The translations under genes and the position numbers were made by a program. 64,000 nt of DNA from Corallococcus macrosporus (lineage in GTDB: Bacteria; Myxococcota; Myxococcia; Myxococcales; Myxococcaceae). Of the stretch, positions 48,275 to 54,344 are shown one piece after another; position 1 is the first letter of the stretch; every line of letters starts with the position of its first letter. The DNA lies in assembly GCF_017302985.1 (NCBI RefSeq), contig NZ_JAFIMU010000007.1, forward strand, positions 1,054,001 through 1,118,000. Reading direction: 5' to 3'. Below the pieces are notes generated by a model that was not told the DNA's origin, did not search any database, and worked only from the letters and a program-made list of their open reading frames with translations.

Positions 48275-49834
48275 ATGAACCTGCCAAATATCACCCTGGC
48301 GGAATTCCTCCCCATGCTGCCCGCCATCATCATGGTGGTGGCGGCCTCCGTCCTGCTGTTGTCGGAGGTGTTCCTCTCCGCGACGGCGTCCCGTGGCTAC
48401 CAGGCGGTGCTCACCGTCGTGGCGGCGGTGGCCAGCGGCGCCGTGGCCGTGGGCCTGATGTTCGAGCCGCCGCGCGAGGTGTTCCTCGGCTTCGGCGTGC
48501 TGGACCCCTTCTCCAGCTTCCTCACCCTGGTGGTGAGCGTGGGCCTGGGGCTGGCGGCCCTGAGCGCGGTGGGCTTCCTGCGCCGTCGCGGCGCGGAGCG
48601 CGGTGAGTTCTACGCGCTGATGCTCTTCGCCTCCGCGGGCATGAGCCTGCTGGCGATGTCGTCGGAGTTCATCACCATCTTCGTCAACATCGAGGTGCTC
48701 TCCATCGCGACGTACGCGCTGACGGCCTACCTGCGCCGCGGCACGCGCCCCAGCGAGGCGGGCTTCAAGTACTTCATCCTGGGCGCCTTCTCCTCCGCCA
48801 TCCTGCTGTACGGCACGGCGCTGCTCTACGGCGCCACGGGCACGACGAAGCTCAACGACATGGCGGGGCCGCTGCAGCAGGCGCTGTCCACCACGCCGGC
48901 GCTCGTCTACGTGGGCGCGGTGCTCATCGCCGCGGGCTTCGCGTTCAAGGTCGCGGCCGTGCCGTTCCACATGTGGACGCCGGACGTGTACGAGGGCGCC
49001 CCCACCCCGGTGACGGCGCTCATGAGCGCGGGCGTGAAGGCGGCGGCGTTCGCGTCGCTGGTGCGCGTCTTCGTCACGGTGGGCAAGGGCATGGACCCCA
49101 AGCTGCCGCTGATGCTCTTCGCCACGCTGGCGCTGCTCACGATGATCGCCGGCAACCTGATGGCCATCCCGCAGCGCAACGTGAAGCGCATGCTGGCGTA
49201 CTCCTCCATCGCGCACGCGGGCTACCTGCTGCTGGGCGTGGCGGCGCTGTTCGTCGCGGCGCCGGGCGAGCACTTCCGCCTGCTGTCCGCGTCCTCGCTG
49301 TCCGGTGGCACGCCGCTGGACGTGGCGCGCTCGGACGCGCTGCGCGGCATCCTCTACTACCTGCTGGCGTACACCTTCAGCGCGACGGGCGCCTTCGCCA
49401 TGGTCTCCGCGCTGGAGCGCCGCGAGGACGAGGAGAAGGGAACCGCGTGGGACCTGGAGCGCTTCGCGGGCCTCGCGCAGCGCCGTCCGGGTTGGGCCTT
49501 CGCCATGGCGGCCTTCATGCTGTCCCTGGGCGGCATCCCCCCCACCGTCGGCTTCATGAGCAAGCTGCTCATCTTCCAGGCGGCCATCGACGTGGGCCTC
49601 GTGGGCCTCACCGTGGTGGCGGTGCTCAGCAGCGCGGCGGGCGCGTATTACTACCTGCGCGTCGTGGTCTACATGTTCATGCACCCCATCCCCGAGGGCG
49701 CCCAGCCGCTGGAGCGCAACTGGGGCACGGAGGCCGCGCTGGTCATCGCCACCGTCGCCGTCGTCCTGCTGGGCATCCTCCCCGGCCACGTCACCGACTG
49801 GCTGGCCCAGGCCGGCACGCTGTTCGGTCAGTAG
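48275..49834 (+). CDS. nuoN: NADH-quinone oxidoreductase subunit N
   Basis: This is the third antiporter-like subunit (519 residues). The channel Glu lies in FVNIEVLSIATYALTAYLRR, and FHMWTPDVYEGAPTPVTALM and YSSIAHAGYLLLG are diagnostic. It ends the E-F-J-K-L-M-N cluster. Downstream DNA up to 50376 contains no further rightward gene. Confidence 0.96.
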   Translation: MNLPNITLAEFLPMLPAIIMVVAASVLLLSEVFLSATASRGYQAVLTVVAAVASGAVAVGLMFEPPREVFLGFGVLDPFSSFLTLVVSVGLGLAALSAVGFLRRRGAERGEFYALMLFASAGMSLLAMSSEFITIFVNIEVLSIATYALTAYLRRGTRPSEAGFKYFILGAFSSAILLYGTALLYGATGTTKLNDMAGPLQQALSTTPALVYVGAVLIAAGFAFKVAAVPFHMWTPDVYEGAPTPVTALMSAGVKAAAFASLVRVFVTVGKGMDPKLPLMLFATLALLTMIAGNLMAIPQRNVKRMLAYSSIAHAGYLLLGVAALFVAAPGEHFRLLSASSLSGGTPLDVARSDALRGILYYLLAYTFSATGAFAMVSALERREDEEKGTAWDLERFAGLAQRRPGWAFAMAAFMLSLGGIPPTVGFMSKLLIFQAAIDVGLVGLTVVAVLSSAAGAYYYLRVVVYMFMHPIPEGAQPLERNWGTEAALVIATVAVVLLGILPGHVTDWLAQAGTLFGQ

Positions 49835-49946: not shown

Positions 49947-49964
49947 CATTTCAGAAATGAAATG
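49947..49964. repeat. CATTTC-AGAAAT-GAAATG inverted repeat
   Basis: Six-base arms flank a 6-base spacer, about 110 bases after nuoN. It resembles the other TTTCA/TGAAA repeats of this intergenic region but lies outside the predicted sRNA. It may be an operator, a relic, or part of nuoN termination. Confidence 0.35.
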
Positions 49965-50020: not shown

Positions 50021-50060
50021 AAAAGAAGGCGGCCCGGCACCCGTGAGGGTGTCGGGCCGC
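50021..50060 (-). terminator. Terminator of the Pxr-like sRNA
   Basis: On the minus strand, a 14-bp stem (one G-T pair) spans 50060-50029 with loop TCAC, followed by CTTCTTTT. It is one of the strongest hairpins in the window. On the plus strand it could also stop read-through from nuoN, with loop GTGA. Confidence 0.88.
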
Positions 50061-50141
50061 GGGTCTTCTCAAGGTGACACACCGGAAGTGCTGAAAGGGT
50101 GGGGGGGAACCACTTTCAGCCTCGCTTCGATGCGTCCCGAC
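50021..50141 (-). ncRNA. pxr: Pxr-like small regulatory RNA
   Basis: Predicted from signals, not homology search. A -24/-12 promoter ends near 50151 and a terminator ends near 50021, giving an RNA of about 120 bases. Its first stem-loop pairs GCTGAAAG with CTTTCAGC (50120-50090) around a loop holding exactly seven C. From memory, the M. xanthus sRNA Pxr blocks fruiting-body development until starvation, and a change in a run of seven C abolished its action. Pxr lies next to the genes for its regulators PxrR and PxrK, as here. The 5' end is accurate only to a few bases. Confidence 0.82.
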
Positions 50142-50150
50142 CTAGCCTTT

Positions 50151-50166
50151 AGCAGGTGCCATGCCA
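50151..50166 (-). promoter_or_regulatory. Sigma-54 (-24/-12) promoter for the sRNA
   Basis: Reading leftward, TGGCATGGCACCTGCT fits the consensus TGGCACG-N4-TTGCW with two mismatches. The GG and GC are 10 bases apart, as required. Transcription should start about 12 bases on, near 50140. The adjacent regulator is a sigma-54 activator with GAFTGA, which supports the call. Confidence 0.8.
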
Positions 50167-50250
50167 GCGCTCGCGGAGGACGAAATCCTAGACCTTCCGG
50201 GCACTTGGACGCGGGGGCGATGCTGCTGCCTCCATCCTCGCCATTGCAGG

Positions 50251-50269
50251 CCTGAAATCGCGTTTCAGG
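50251..50269. promoter_or_regulatory. Candidate activator site (CCTGAAA-N5-TTTCAGG)
   Basis: Seven-base arms flank TCGCG. The centre lies about 120 bases upstream of the predicted sRNA start, the usual range for sigma-54 activator sites. A second, weaker dyad TTCA-TCCA-TGAA lies at 50306-50317. PxrR is the natural candidate to bind them; this is inference. Confidence 0.55.
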
Positions 50270-50376
50270 GATGAAAACATCCAACGAATTCAGGCGGTTG
50301 GTTTTTTCATCCATGAACGGGGCCGAAATCGGATCTGACCTCGTACCGCGAGGCTGGGTGAAGGCCTACCGGGAGG

Positions 50377-51831
50377 TTATTCGCGGGCGCCCGCGGGCGG
50401 ACGGAGGTTGAGCCGCTTCATCTTCCGCCACAGCGTGGTGGAGGAGACGCCCAGCTCGTCCGCGACGCGGGTGAGGTCCACGCCGTGGCGCTCCAGGGCC
50501 TGGACGATGGCCCGGCGCTCCGCGTCCTCCACCACCTCCGCCAGCGTGGGGCCCGTGGCCTCCGCGCTGGTGGGCCGGGCGTCAGCGGGTGGCGGCTGGC
50601 CCGTGGCCTCGGACGGGGCGGTGGTGTCGGGGAGCACGCGGCCCTGGGGGCGCAGCGGGAAGTCCTCGGGGAGCAGCTCGTCGCCCTCCGCGAGCGCGGC
50701 GGCCTGCTCCACCAGGTTCTCCAGCTCGCGCACGTTGCCGGGGAAGCGGTACGTCATCAGGTGCTCCACGGCGGCGGCGGACAGGCGCCGGGGCCGGGGG
50801 CTGCGGGCGTTGGCGCGCTGCAGGAAGTGCTCGGCCAGCGCGGGCACGTCCTCCAGGCGCTCGCGCAGTGGGGGCACGCGCAGGAGCACCACGTTGAGGC
50901 GGTAGTAGAGGTCCTGACGGAAGCGCTTCTCCTTCACCTCCAGCTCGATGTCGCGGTTGGTGGCCGCGGCGATGCGCACGTCCACGCGCAGCGCGGTGGA
51001 CTCGCCCACGCGGCGCACCTCGCCGTCCTGGAGCGTGCGCAGCAGCTTGGACTGGAAGGTGGGGCTCGTCTCCGTCACCTCGTCGATGAAGAGCGTGCCG
51101 TTGTCCGCTTCCTCGAAGAGGCCCCGGCGCGCCTTCACCGCGCCCGTGAAGGCGCCCTTGGCGTGGCCGAAGAGCTCCGTCTCCAGCAGCGTTTCGCTGA
51201 TGGCGGCGCAGTTGACGGGCACGAAGGGCTGCTTGTTGCGGCGGCTGTGCGCGTGGAGGGCGCGGGCCACCAGCTCCTTGCCCGTGCCGCTCTCGCCCTG
51301 GATGAGGACGGTGGCGTCGCTCTGCGCCACGCGCACCAGGCGCGTGGTGAGCTCGCGCATCGCCTGGCTGCGGCCCACCAGCGCGGACAGGCCGTGGCGC
51401 TCCGCGAAGTCCGTGGCCAGGCTGTCCACCGCCGCCTGGAGCTTGGCGCGCTCCAGGGCGCGCTCCACGCGGTAGAGCACCTCCCCTTCCTTGAAGGGCT
51501 TGGTGATGTAGTCGTACGCGCCCAGGCGCATGGCCTCCACCGCGCTCTCGATGGAGCCGAAGGCCGTCATCATGATGACCTGGAGGCGCGGGGCCACCTC
51601 CAGCGCGCGCTTGAGGAGCGTGAGCCCGTCCATGGGCTCCATCTTCAGGTCCGTGAGGAGCAGGTCCACGCGCTCCTTGCCGAGCACGCCCAGGGCCTCC
51701 TCGCCGGTGGCGGATTCGAAGATGTCGTAGCCCGCCTGCTTCAGGAGCAGCGCGGTGGTGGCGCGCATGTTGCGCTGGTCGTCCACCACGAGGATGCGGC
51801 CTCGGGGAACCGGGGTGGTGGCGTCGGTCAT
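50377..51831 (-). CDS. pxrR: NtrC-family sigma-54 response regulator, PxrR-like
   Basis: The order of the 484 residues is receiver (1-130; acceptor Asp61 in LLLTDLKMEPMDG), AAA+ activator domain with Walker A GESGTGKE, sigma-54 contact loop GAFTGA and Walker B FIDEV, then a Fis-type helix-turn-helix at the C-terminus. A Pro-rich linker precedes the HTH. Its ATG overlaps the kinase stop (ATGA). Position next to a sigma-54 sRNA promoter identifies it with PxrR, reported as a positive regulator of Pxr in M. xanthus. Confidence 0.9.
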   Translation of the reverse strand: MTDATTPVPRGRILVVDDQRNMRATTALLLKQAGYDIFESATGEEALGVLGKERVDLLLTDLKMEPMDGLTLLKRALEVAPRLQVIMMTAFGSIESAVEAMRLGAYDYITKPFKEGEVLYRVERALERAKLQAAVDSLATDFAERHGLSALVGRSQAMRELTTRLVRVAQSDATVLIQGESGTGKELVARALHAHSRRNKQPFVPVNCAAISETLLETELFGHAKGAFTGAVKARRGLFEEADNGTLFIDEVTETSPTFQSKLLRTLQDGEVRRVGESTALRVDVRIAAATNRDIELEVKEKRFRQDLYYRLNVVLLRVPPLRERLEDVPALAEHFLQRANARSPRPRRLSAAAVEHLMTYRFPGNVRELENLVEQAAALAEGDELLPEDFPLRPQGRVLPDTTAPSEATGQPPPADARPTSAEATGPTLAEVVEDAERRAIVQALERHGVDLTRVADELGVSSTTLWRKMKRLNLRPPAGARE

Positions 51832-54344
51832 GAGAGGGACTGGGGCTGCGTGAGCGGCAGCCAGAAGGTGAAGGTGGTTCCGCGTCCGGGGGCGCTCTCC
51901 ACGGCGATCTCGCCGCGGTGCTCCTCCAGGATGCGCTTCACCACCGCCAGCCCCAGGCCGGTGCCCTGGGCCTTGGTGGTGAAGAAGGGTTCGAAGACGC
52001 GGTGGAGCAGCTCCGCCGGGATGCCCGGCCCCTGGTCCATCACGTCGATTCTCAGCTGCTCGCGGCCGCCGTGCGTGTCCCGGCGCGCGTGCACCCAGAC
52101 CTCGCCCCCCTGGGGCATGGACTGGATGGCGTTGACGGCCACGTTGAACAGGGCCTGTCGAATCTGCCGCCGGTCCATGGGGACGGTGGCGAGGCCGGGC
52201 TCCACCTCCACGTGGACGCGCACCGCGCGCTCCGTGGAGGCCTGCGCCCGCGCGGCTTCCAGCGCGTCCTGGAGCACGCGCAGCAGGTCCTCCGGCTGGA
52301 GCACCGGGTTGCGCGGGCGAGTGAAGTCCAGGAGGTCGGCCACCATGCGGTTGAGGCGGTCGCTCTCCTCCGCGACGATGTCCAGCAACATCGCGGTGTC
52401 GCCGCTGGGGCTCATGATGCGCCGGAGCGTGGCCACCGCGTTGAAGATGACGCCCAGGGGGTTGCGCACCTCGTGGGCGACGATGGCGGACAGCTCGCCC
52501 AGCGCGGCCAGGCGCTCGCGCTTCACCATCTCCGCGCGGGTGGCGGCCAGCTCCGCGTAGCTGGCCCACAGCGACTCGTAGAGGCGCGCGTTGGCGATGG
52601 ACAGCGCCAGCTGGCCGCACGTGGCCTCCGCCAGCTCGATCAGCTCCGGGCCGAAGGGGCGCGGGCCGCGCACGTCGTCCACCAGCACCACGCCGATGAG
52701 CTCCTCGCGCGAGGTGAGCGGCAGGCCCAGCAGGGCCTTCTCCCCCAGCCGGTCGATGAGCACGGCGCTGACGGACACGCTCGCCGACGTGAGGTCCTCC
52801 ACGGCGATGGGCTTGCGCTCCAGGGCCACGCGCGCGGCCAGGTCGTCGCTGTCCAGCGGCACCACCACCGTGCGGAACAGGTCGCGGTGGGCCGCCGACG
52901 CCGCCGCGCCCCGCAGCACCTTGGCCTGTTCGTCGTAGAGCAGGATGAAGCAGTTGGACACGTCCAGGAGGTGCACCAGGAAGTCGGACGCGACGTCCAG
53001 GATGCTCGCCGTCTCCAGCACGCCCGACGTGGTGCGCGCCAGGTCCAGCAGCAGGCGCGACTCCGTGAGCTGGCGCGCCGCCTCCGCGCGAAGGCGGCGC
53101 TGCTCCAGCAGCGTCACCAGCAGCTCCGCGAGCGTGGCCAAAAGCCGCGCGTCGCGCTCGTCGAAGGGGCGCTCCTTGCCGCGCAGCGCCTGCACCACGC
53201 CCACGCACTCGCCGCCCCGGGTGAGCCGCGCCGCCGTCCCGCTGCCGAAGCGGCCCTCGGACAGCGTCTCCAGCGTCCTGCCCTGCGCCTCCGACGACAG
53301 CACGCCGCCGTCCTCGCGCAGCGACGCGGCCAGGAGCACCCCGGTGGCCCGGGCCGCGTCCCCCGCCGTCATGCTCCCCTCCTCCAGCCCCACGTGGGCG
53401 GAGAGCCGGGGCGCCTGTCCCGGGTCGGAGGTGACGTGCAGCGACACCGCGCGGGCCTGGAGCAGCTCCGCCACGCGCGCGAGGAACGTCTCCGGCGGCG
53501 GGGGCACGGGCTGCGCCACGAAGCGCGCCATCTCCGCCACCGCCTCCACCTCCCAGCGGCTGCGCGCGCCGTCCGCCTGGAGGTTCGCGTCCGCCAGCGC
53601 CGCGCCCACCACCTTCGCGAACAGCGTCAGCACCGAGCCGTGCCGGGGCGCCACCCACGGGCCGGCCACCCACAGCACCTCCGACTGGGGCCCGCCCACC
53701 GGCAGGTACGCGTGCGTGGGCTGCGCCTGGTCCGCGCCGCCGAACACCGGCCGCCCGTCCGACAGCGCCTCCAGCGCCAGGTGCGAGTCCGCCGGCAGGG
53801 ACACGCCGTCGCGCACCGCCAGCCGCGTGCCGTCCCAGCGCAGGATGCGCGCCCGGAAGCCCGCGGCCTCCAGGCCCGCCAGCGCCACGCGCCGCACGCC
53901 CTCCTCCGAGCGCGCGGACACCAGCCCCGCGGACGTGTCCACCAGCCGCTCCGCCACCACCAGCTCCATGGGCCGGTCCGACATCACCATGCAGCTGAGC
54001 AGCAGGGCGAAGCGCCCTCCCTCCAGTTGCAGGGGGTTGGCCTGGACGTACACCTCGCCCGGCGCGCCGTGGACGCTGAGGACCTTGTAGAGCTGCGGGC
54101 GTCCGTCCAGCGGCGCGCCCGTGGCCAGCCGCTGGAAGCGGTCCCCCATCCGGCTGCGGTCCTCCGGCTGCACGAAGTCCAGGAAGACGCGGCCCTCCAC
54201 CTGGTCCAGGGGCAGGCCCAGGAGCCGCGCGTACGCGGCGTTGGCCACCAGGACGCGCCCCTCCGCCTCCAGCACCAGCATGGGCTGGGTGAAGGGCTCC
54301 ACCAGGGCGCGCAGCTCCCGCTCGCTGTAGACCTTGGGACTCAT
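51828..54344 (-). CDS. pxrK: PAS-GAF sensor histidine kinase, PxrK-like
   Basis: The 838 residues start with a PAS domain (PMLVLEAEGRVLVANAAYARLLGL). Two or three GAF-like domains fill about 125-600. The phospho-acceptor is His624 in IVAHEVRNPLG, and the ATPase has N-box NVAVNAIQSM, DQGPGIP and GTGLGLAVVKR. No membrane segment is present, so it senses an internal signal. It overlaps selB and pxrR by four bases each, making one translation-coupled unit. From memory, PxrK is the cognate kinase described beside PxrR. Confidence 0.88.
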   Translation of the reverse strand: MSPKVYSERELRALVEPFTQPMLVLEAEGRVLVANAAYARLLGLPLDQVEGRVFLDFVQPEDRSRMGDRFQRLATGAPLDGRPQLYKVLSVHGAPGEVYVQANPLQLEGGRFALLLSCMVMSDRPMELVVAERLVDTSAGLVSARSEEGVRRVALAGLEAAGFRARILRWDGTRLAVRDGVSLPADSHLALEALSDGRPVFGGADQAQPTHAYLPVGGPQSEVLWVAGPWVAPRHGSVLTLFAKVVGAALADANLQADGARSRWEVEAVAEMARFVAQPVPPPPETFLARVAELLQARAVSLHVTSDPGQAPRLSAHVGLEEGSMTAGDAARATGVLLAASLREDGGVLSSEAQGRTLETLSEGRFGSGTAARLTRGGECVGVVQALRGKERPFDERDARLLATLAELLVTLLEQRRLRAEAARQLTESRLLLDLARTTSGVLETASILDVASDFLVHLLDVSNCFILLYDEQAKVLRGAAASAAHRDLFRTVVVPLDSDDLAARVALERKPIAVEDLTSASVSVSAVLIDRLGEKALLGLPLTSREELIGVVLVDDVRGPRPFGPELIELAEATCGQLALSIANARLYESLWASYAELAATRAEMVKRERLAALGELSAIVAHEVRNPLGVIFNAVATLRRIMSPSGDTAMLLDIVAEESDRLNRMVADLLDFTRPRNPVLQPEDLLRVLQDALEAARAQASTERAVRVHVEVEPGLATVPMDRRQIRQALFNVAVNAIQSMPQGGEVWVHARRDTHGGREQLRIDVMDQGPGIPAELLHRVFEPFFTTKAQGTGLGLAVVKRILEEHRGEIAVESAPGRGTTFTFWLPLTQPQSLS

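Follow-up and report, generated by a model that had tools for sequence, protein, structure and literature searches.

The 64-kb stretch of Corallococcus DNA analysed here (the window) carries a small RNA locus which, by covariance model and gene order, is the Corallococcus orthologue of pxr. Comparison of 130 copies of this RNA points to several features that appear to be new, namely a longer 5' start with an additional helix (P1), dyads upstream of the gene and, in Corallococcus, a further dyad downstream together with the absence of pxrA. The whole explanation, in which a Pxr orthologue under the control of PxrK, PxrR and sigma-54 would start near position 50140, form P1, undergo processing and reach its targets through a loop of seven C, is in our judgement probable.

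In M. xanthus, Pxr blocks fruiting-body development while food is plentiful, and it depends on PxrR and PxrK. A long and a short form occur, of which the short is lost upon starvation, and a still longer form is trimmed by RNase D. Both the SL1 loop and SL3 are needed for its function (PMC5684412, PMC5568312 and PMC10217877).

The pxr locus and its distribution

The main features of the locus are as follows.

48275-49834 (+): nuoN-type NADH dehydrogenase gene, convergent neighbour (Pfam Proton_antipo_M)
50021-50127 (-): Pxr with the ends given by Rfam and the literature, here 107 nt (RF01812 match)
50021-50072 (-): SL3 and flanks, terminator hairpin with CTTCTTTT tail (folds, letters)
50086-50123 (-): SL1, with the C7 run 50107-50101 in its loop (folds, C run)
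50152-50166 (-): sigma-54 type -24/-12 element TGGCATGGCACCTGC (sequence; such an element in 128 of 130 copies)
50377-51816 (-): pxrR, sigma-54 dependent response regulator (Pfam Response_reg, Sigma54_activat, HTH_8)
51828-54344 (-): pxrK, sensor histidine kinase (Pfam GAF, HisKA, HATPase_c; 690 of 838 residues scanned; coordinates use a chosen start codon)

The Rfam covariance model for Pxr (RF01812) matches 50021-50127 (-) with 113.8 bits (E 1.4e-19, gathering score 80) over its full length (model positions 1-109 of 109), and this is the sole Rfam match above its own gathering score within the window. A single Pxr copy was found in the 9.81-Mb genome. Upstream of pxr on the same strand lie pxrR, pxrK and then a selB gene, and the gap between pxr and the nuoN gene is 186 nt. 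With pxrR (nla19) on one side of pxr and an NADH dehydrogenase gene on the other, the locus matches the gene order pxrK-pxrR-pxr-nuoN reported for M. xanthus and relatives (PMC5568312). PxrR of the window is 94% identical to that of C. exercitus and 83% identical to that of M. xanthus AM003, its nearest named relatives being Corallococcus. The naming of genus g1 as Corallococcus in the comparisons below rests in part on this likeness.

A preliminary description, made from the letters of the window, had proposed a Pxr-type sRNA locus here, and both the covariance model and the gene order bear this out. The adjoining sigma-54 activator and kinase that it named are pxrR, with receiver, sigma-54 activator and Fis-type HTH domains, and pxrK, with GAF and histidine kinase domains. 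Its claim that protein annotation would leave the region blank holds for proteins, but not for annotation overall, as an Rfam scan detects Pxr. Corallococcus coralloides DSM 2259 Pxr is present in the published alignment (Fig. 3 legend of PMC5684412), and a pxr gene in Corallococcus is therefore ordinary rather than news.

Folding of the annotated RNA (50127-50021, -) gives -53.1 kcal/mol (z -5.9), a value equalled by 0 of 200 shuffles; the folding and the comparison with pxr had been proposed as checks, and both came out in favour of the locus. Promoter, C-loop hairpin and terminator line up on the minus strand where they had been described, with exactly seven C (50107-50101) in the loop of SL1 and, at 50072-50021, SL3 as a terminator hairpin with the T-rich tail CTTCTTTT. 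A generic terminator scan of the window was uninformative (one found, 0.6 expected). In the fold of the annotated RNA the third stem is formed by uninterrupted GCGGCCCG:CGGGCCGC pairing, presumably the conserved boxed 8-bp core of PMC5684412. The C run is, as the preliminary description held, the feature altered in M. xanthus, where the PX mutation replaces a C by A within the C-rich loop of SL1 (PMC5568312, PMC5684412). Across the 130 family copies the loop motif is GGTTC7AC in 122, GGTTTC6AC in seven and a C8 form in one, and SL1 with its C7 loop is retained in 16/16 Corallococcus. The Pxr locus described here has in common with that of M. xanthus and its relatives the sequence, the fold, the C7 loop and the -24/-12 element, as well as the upstream genes pxrR and pxrK and the nuo gene on the downstream side, whereas its SL1 stem carries an A-T pair in place of the Myxococcus G-C.

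Pxr matches (E<=0.001) occurred in 93 of the 145 genomes of the order, 61 of them with a match above the gathering score and 32 with none above it. A search of the phylum likewise gave matches in 93 of 195 genomes, all 93 within the window's own family, which is represented by 96 genomes in the comparison set. Removal of three weak second matches (L168, L169 and L170, 38.4-35.6 bits) from 99 loci left 96 loci with 130 copies, and since many copies come from close relatives, copy counts are not independent. In 'plasmids', blastn found nothing that matched.

Eleven loci (L127-L136 and L138) hold tandem pxr arrays, with 2-5 copies among the matches listed and a spacing of about 300-325 nt. Copies 2-5 of L134 are identical, and a separate -24/-12 element belongs to each tandem copy. 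Loci L152, L153 and L154, in genomes of 2.1-2.7 Mb (G125-G127), hold a divergent Pxr that scores 48-50 bits, less than the gathering score. These three loci are without paired upstream dyads, and Pxr lies near nuoN in L153. The best PxrR matches in these genomes are only 45-46% identical, and a sigma-54 gene was found in two of the three. Locus L068 (BNCN01000002.1), titled Comamonas sp. KCTC 72670, has a Myxococcus-type pxrR 83% identical to that of the window and is probably mislabelled.

The implied transcript start and a predicted helix, P1

A GG-N10-GC element with at least 7 of 10 consensus bases within 80 nt upstream is found in 128 of the 130 copies, and its end lies 18-27 nt ahead of the annotated start (31 nt for the site chosen at L123). 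The preliminary description had placed a -24/-12 promoter at 50166-50152 (-), TGGCATGGCACCTGC. Alone this match is uninformative, as 22 equally good ones occur in the 64 kb (both strands), but it is made meaningful by the comparable element close upstream in 128 of 130 copies. Two Pxr-like RNAs with a C7 loop (L164 and L165, in genomes G122 and G123) have neither a -24/-12 element nor an upstream dyad.

Transcription from a sigma-54 promoter is expected to start about 12 nt past the -12 base, and a start 25 nt past it is too distant for sigma-54. With the -12 base at 50152, we therefore infer that transcription begins near 50140, which would put the annotated 5' end about 13 nt into the RNA. 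The RNA of about 120 bases that had been proposed suits the promoter better than the published 108. The sequence so added would form one arm of P1.

50128-50140 (-): proposed 5' leader of the primary transcript (12-nt rule, fold, covariation)
50138-50128 (-): P1 5' arm GGGACGCATCG (fold, covariation, letters)
50073-50084 (-): P1 3' arm CGGTGTGTCACC, published as the SL2 hairpin region (fold, covariation, letters)

In the predicted fold of 50141-50018 (-), GGGACGCATCG pairs with CGGTGTGTCACC and encloses SL1, at -66.9 kcal/mol (z -7.6). Sequences extended in this way were collected from all copies except L164 and L165 (no -24/-12 element) and the second copy of L133 (an N), giving 105 unique sequences. 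From these a script chose 68 non-redundant rows (L123 was left out at this selection), which were aligned by sequence only. On this alignment P1 covariation is 0.393, compared with 0.216 when shuffled and at most 0.144 when slid; the observed value was reached by 0 of 500 shuffles, a test which shared ancestry inflates. Paired cells make up 76.3% (shuffled 63.7%, slid 36.1-45.8%) and 95 cells are changed on both sides (shuffled 39), while the number of P1 pairs with both-side change, 10, is no higher than the 9.1 of the shuffles. When only the 36 nearest rows are considered, P1 has 87.9% of its cells paired (slid 31.9-49.0%). SL1 covariation on the 68 rows is 0.177 (shuffled 0.146, slid up to 0.135), and that of the published SL2 hairpin is 0.238 (shuffled 0.189, slid up to 0.205).

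In predicted folds of the single sequences, at least five leader bases are paired with the region after SL1 in 104 of the 105 unique extended sequences (shuffled leaders 77.5%), and at least eight in 100 of them (shuffled leaders 54%); in the first copy of L144 none is. The C loop is unpaired in 105/105. Native P1 partners outscore the mean of swapped partners in 83 of 93 cases, foreign partners being about equal in the near group. Tests on one sequence at a time are weak: of 60 near sequences 18 reach p<0.05 and one p<0.01, and of 33 far sequences 18 and 11, respectively. RNAalifold did not recover P1 from the alignment and called only the tip of SL1 and SL3, possibly owing to a loss of register in the distant rows.

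The covariation supports a pairing of the leader with the former SL2 region around SL1, predicted family-wide. P1 may then be the substrate of long-to-short processing. It is a possibility to be taken seriously, if one we stop slightly short of calling probable, that the annotated Pxr lacks its first 12-13 nt, that P1 encloses SL1 with SL2 forming only once the leader is gone, and that the making and breaking of P1 is a switch from long to short form thrown by starvation.

Chimeras of a Myxococcus leader with pxr bodies of the Archangium group were set aside as evidence, on account of exceptions and of copies that could not be matched to published ones. They had been built to see whether P1 accounts for the failure of Cystobacter paralogues 1 and 3 when placed in M. 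xanthus (PMC5568312). The computed energy gains (kcal/mol) are -4.3 to -7.2 for first copies, -9.1 to -11.7 for second copies and -3.5 to -12.0 for later ones. The first two copy classes lean as P1 predicts, but values of -10.4 and -12.0 for later L127 copies and of -10.0 for the fourth copy in L129 are exceptions.

Candidate PxrR sites and the distribution of pxrA

Four copies of a dyad, TTKCA-N4-TGMAA, flank the RNA gene.

50244-50257 (-): dyad TTTCAGGCCTGCAA, proposed PxrR site (sequence recurrence)
50263-50276 (-): dyad TTTCATCCCTGAAA, proposed PxrR site (sequence recurrence)
50305-50318 (-): dyad GTTCATGGATGAAA, one mismatch, proposed PxrR site (sequence recurrence)
49949-49962 (-): dyad TTTCATTTCTGAAA, downstream of pxr, between the convergent genes (counterpart in 16/16 Corallococcus)

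These four are all that the 64-kb window holds (1.4 expected; four reached by 3 of 100 shuffles). Across the 96 loci the dyad, allowing one mismatch, occurs 248 times upstream of first copies, against 3.6 expected from first-order resamples. At least two upstream dyads are present in 89 of the loci and none in four (L153, L154, L164 and L165), and those of Corallococcus and Myxococcus lie mostly near -192, -150 and -131 from the annotated start. An out-of-register reading of the upstream palindrome was superseded by this motif. Given this recurrence, the dyads are likely to be the PxrR site; an upstream enhancer binding region of pxr is mentioned in PMC5684412.

Downstream of pxr an exact dyad is found at a distance of 34-121 nt in 16/16 Corallococcus, in poorly conserved surroundings, and L124 has a second one at 15 nt. 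Among non-Corallococcus loci the only exact downstream dyad is in L137, which is cut inside a tandem array (the search reached up to 700 nt, five loci offering less sequence). The tandem Pxr paralogues of Cystobacter/Archangium belong to the same RNA family and have a -24/-12 element for each copy and dyads in most, with comparable dyads between copies of the arrays. Unlike these arrays, the window has a single copy, and the Corallococcus downstream dyad may be the remnant of a lost second pxr copy, or else a downstream enhancer. Neither this dyad nor a lack of pxrA between pxr and nuoN is shared with M. xanthus. The available portions of PMC5568312, PMC5684412, PMC10217877, PMC11928866, PMC7694542 and PMC3771888 yielded no description of P1 or the dyads; the Pxr papers in Science 2010 and J Bacteriol 2016, which may map 5' ends, lie outside this scope.

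In M. xanthus, pxrA (MXAN_1079) adjoins pxr and is a proposed Pxr target, and the available text describes PxrA as restricted to a few Myxococcus and thought younger than pxr (PMC11928866). Searches with Myxococcus PxrA (from L007, E<=1e-15) gave matches in 40 of the 96 family genomes, comprising 27/27 of genus g19 (Myxococcus), eight in four other genera and five elsewhere, but 0/16 Corallococcus and 0/2 of Citreicoccus (g5); the best match in the window's genome is 28.5 bits over 70 aa. By coordinates, pxrA adjoins pxr in all 27 Myxococcus genomes and in the eight of four other genera (G043, G044, G046, G080-G083 and G121), a wider range than the consulted portions of PMC11928866 give. One match (G119:C53:9939-10411) is split, with query 2-84 and 83-158 aligning separately, which might point to a disrupted gene or an assembly error. 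Because pxrA occurs in more genera than reported, its loss in Corallococcus is suggested, and the distribution suggests that pxrA may be older than published. Since it is absent from Corallococcus, the proposed M. xanthus target can also be no more than part of the explanation.

Alternative readings and a proposed mechanism

Lone promoter and terminator matches are commonplace in the window, so one might suppose that promoter, hairpins and T tail coincide by accident, but the RF01812 E value already excludes this and the RNA, promoter and dyads recur in 16/16 Corallococcus, which leaves chance a negligible explanation. The choice of 5' end is less clear-cut. Position 50127 is the end used by Rfam and PMC5568312, and it might be the true start of an RNA of three stem-loops, the stretch between it and the -12 base being conserved for the promoter only. 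The annotated part alone folds well, SL2 shows some covariation, and P1 is absent from the RNAalifold output. However, a start at 50127 would lie too far from the -12 base for sigma-54, and covariation of the leader with the former SL2 arm, on the far side of SL1, is unexpected for a promoter; on this evidence we regard it as unlikely.

A different doubt concerns function, as Pxr in Corallococcus might have no role in gating development or might act via quite other targets. The missing pxrA in all 16 genomes speaks for this. On the other hand, SL1 and its C7 loop are kept in every one of them, and single-copy pxr alleles from other species block development in M. xanthus (PMC5568312), so that such a loss or change of role seems quite improbable.

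On the reading preferred here, a longer Pxr that gates development, PxrK would phosphorylate PxrR, which, bound to the dyads lying 117-191 bp ahead of the annotated RNA, would drive sigma-54 RNA polymerase at the -24/-12 element. Binding of PxrR to the dyads is suggested by their recurrence. Transcription would run from near 50140 to SL3, and the RNA of about 120 nt would have two domains, a long interrupted hairpin (the leader and former 'SL2' around SL1) and SL3. While food lasts, the long form would be processed to the short active form, whose C7 loop may pair with G-rich mRNA sites and so hold back fruiting-body development. Upon starvation the short form would vanish and development begin.

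We know of no G-rich target of Pxr. The exact complement of the C7 loop, GTGGGGGGGAA, has five sites in the genome, pxr itself included (the reversed pattern has one), and none of these exact complements is a convincing target. One of the four other GTGGGGGGGAA sites, 2 nt before an ATG, was dropped, since that gene (by eye for a phospholipase-D-like lipoprotein) more likely begins at a GTG 33 nt upstream of this ATG, so that the site probably falls in coding sequence. As a proposed parallel, sX13 (Xanthomonas), RNAIII (Staphylococcus) and HPnc5490 (Helicobacter) also carry a C run in an apical loop (PMC3771888). sX13 works without Hfq (PMC3771888), and M. xanthus is without an hfq homologue (PMC5684412). 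Family kinship between sX13-type sRNAs and Pxr appeared in none of the tests made.

If confirmed, the longer transcript and P1 would alter the working model of the Pxr family. P1 bears on how the long form is converted to short active Pxr and how starvation stops this, a question raised in PMC10217877. The dyads supply a concrete candidate PxrR site, and the compensating changes in P1 across many genera make the long-to-short step open to a simple mutational test.
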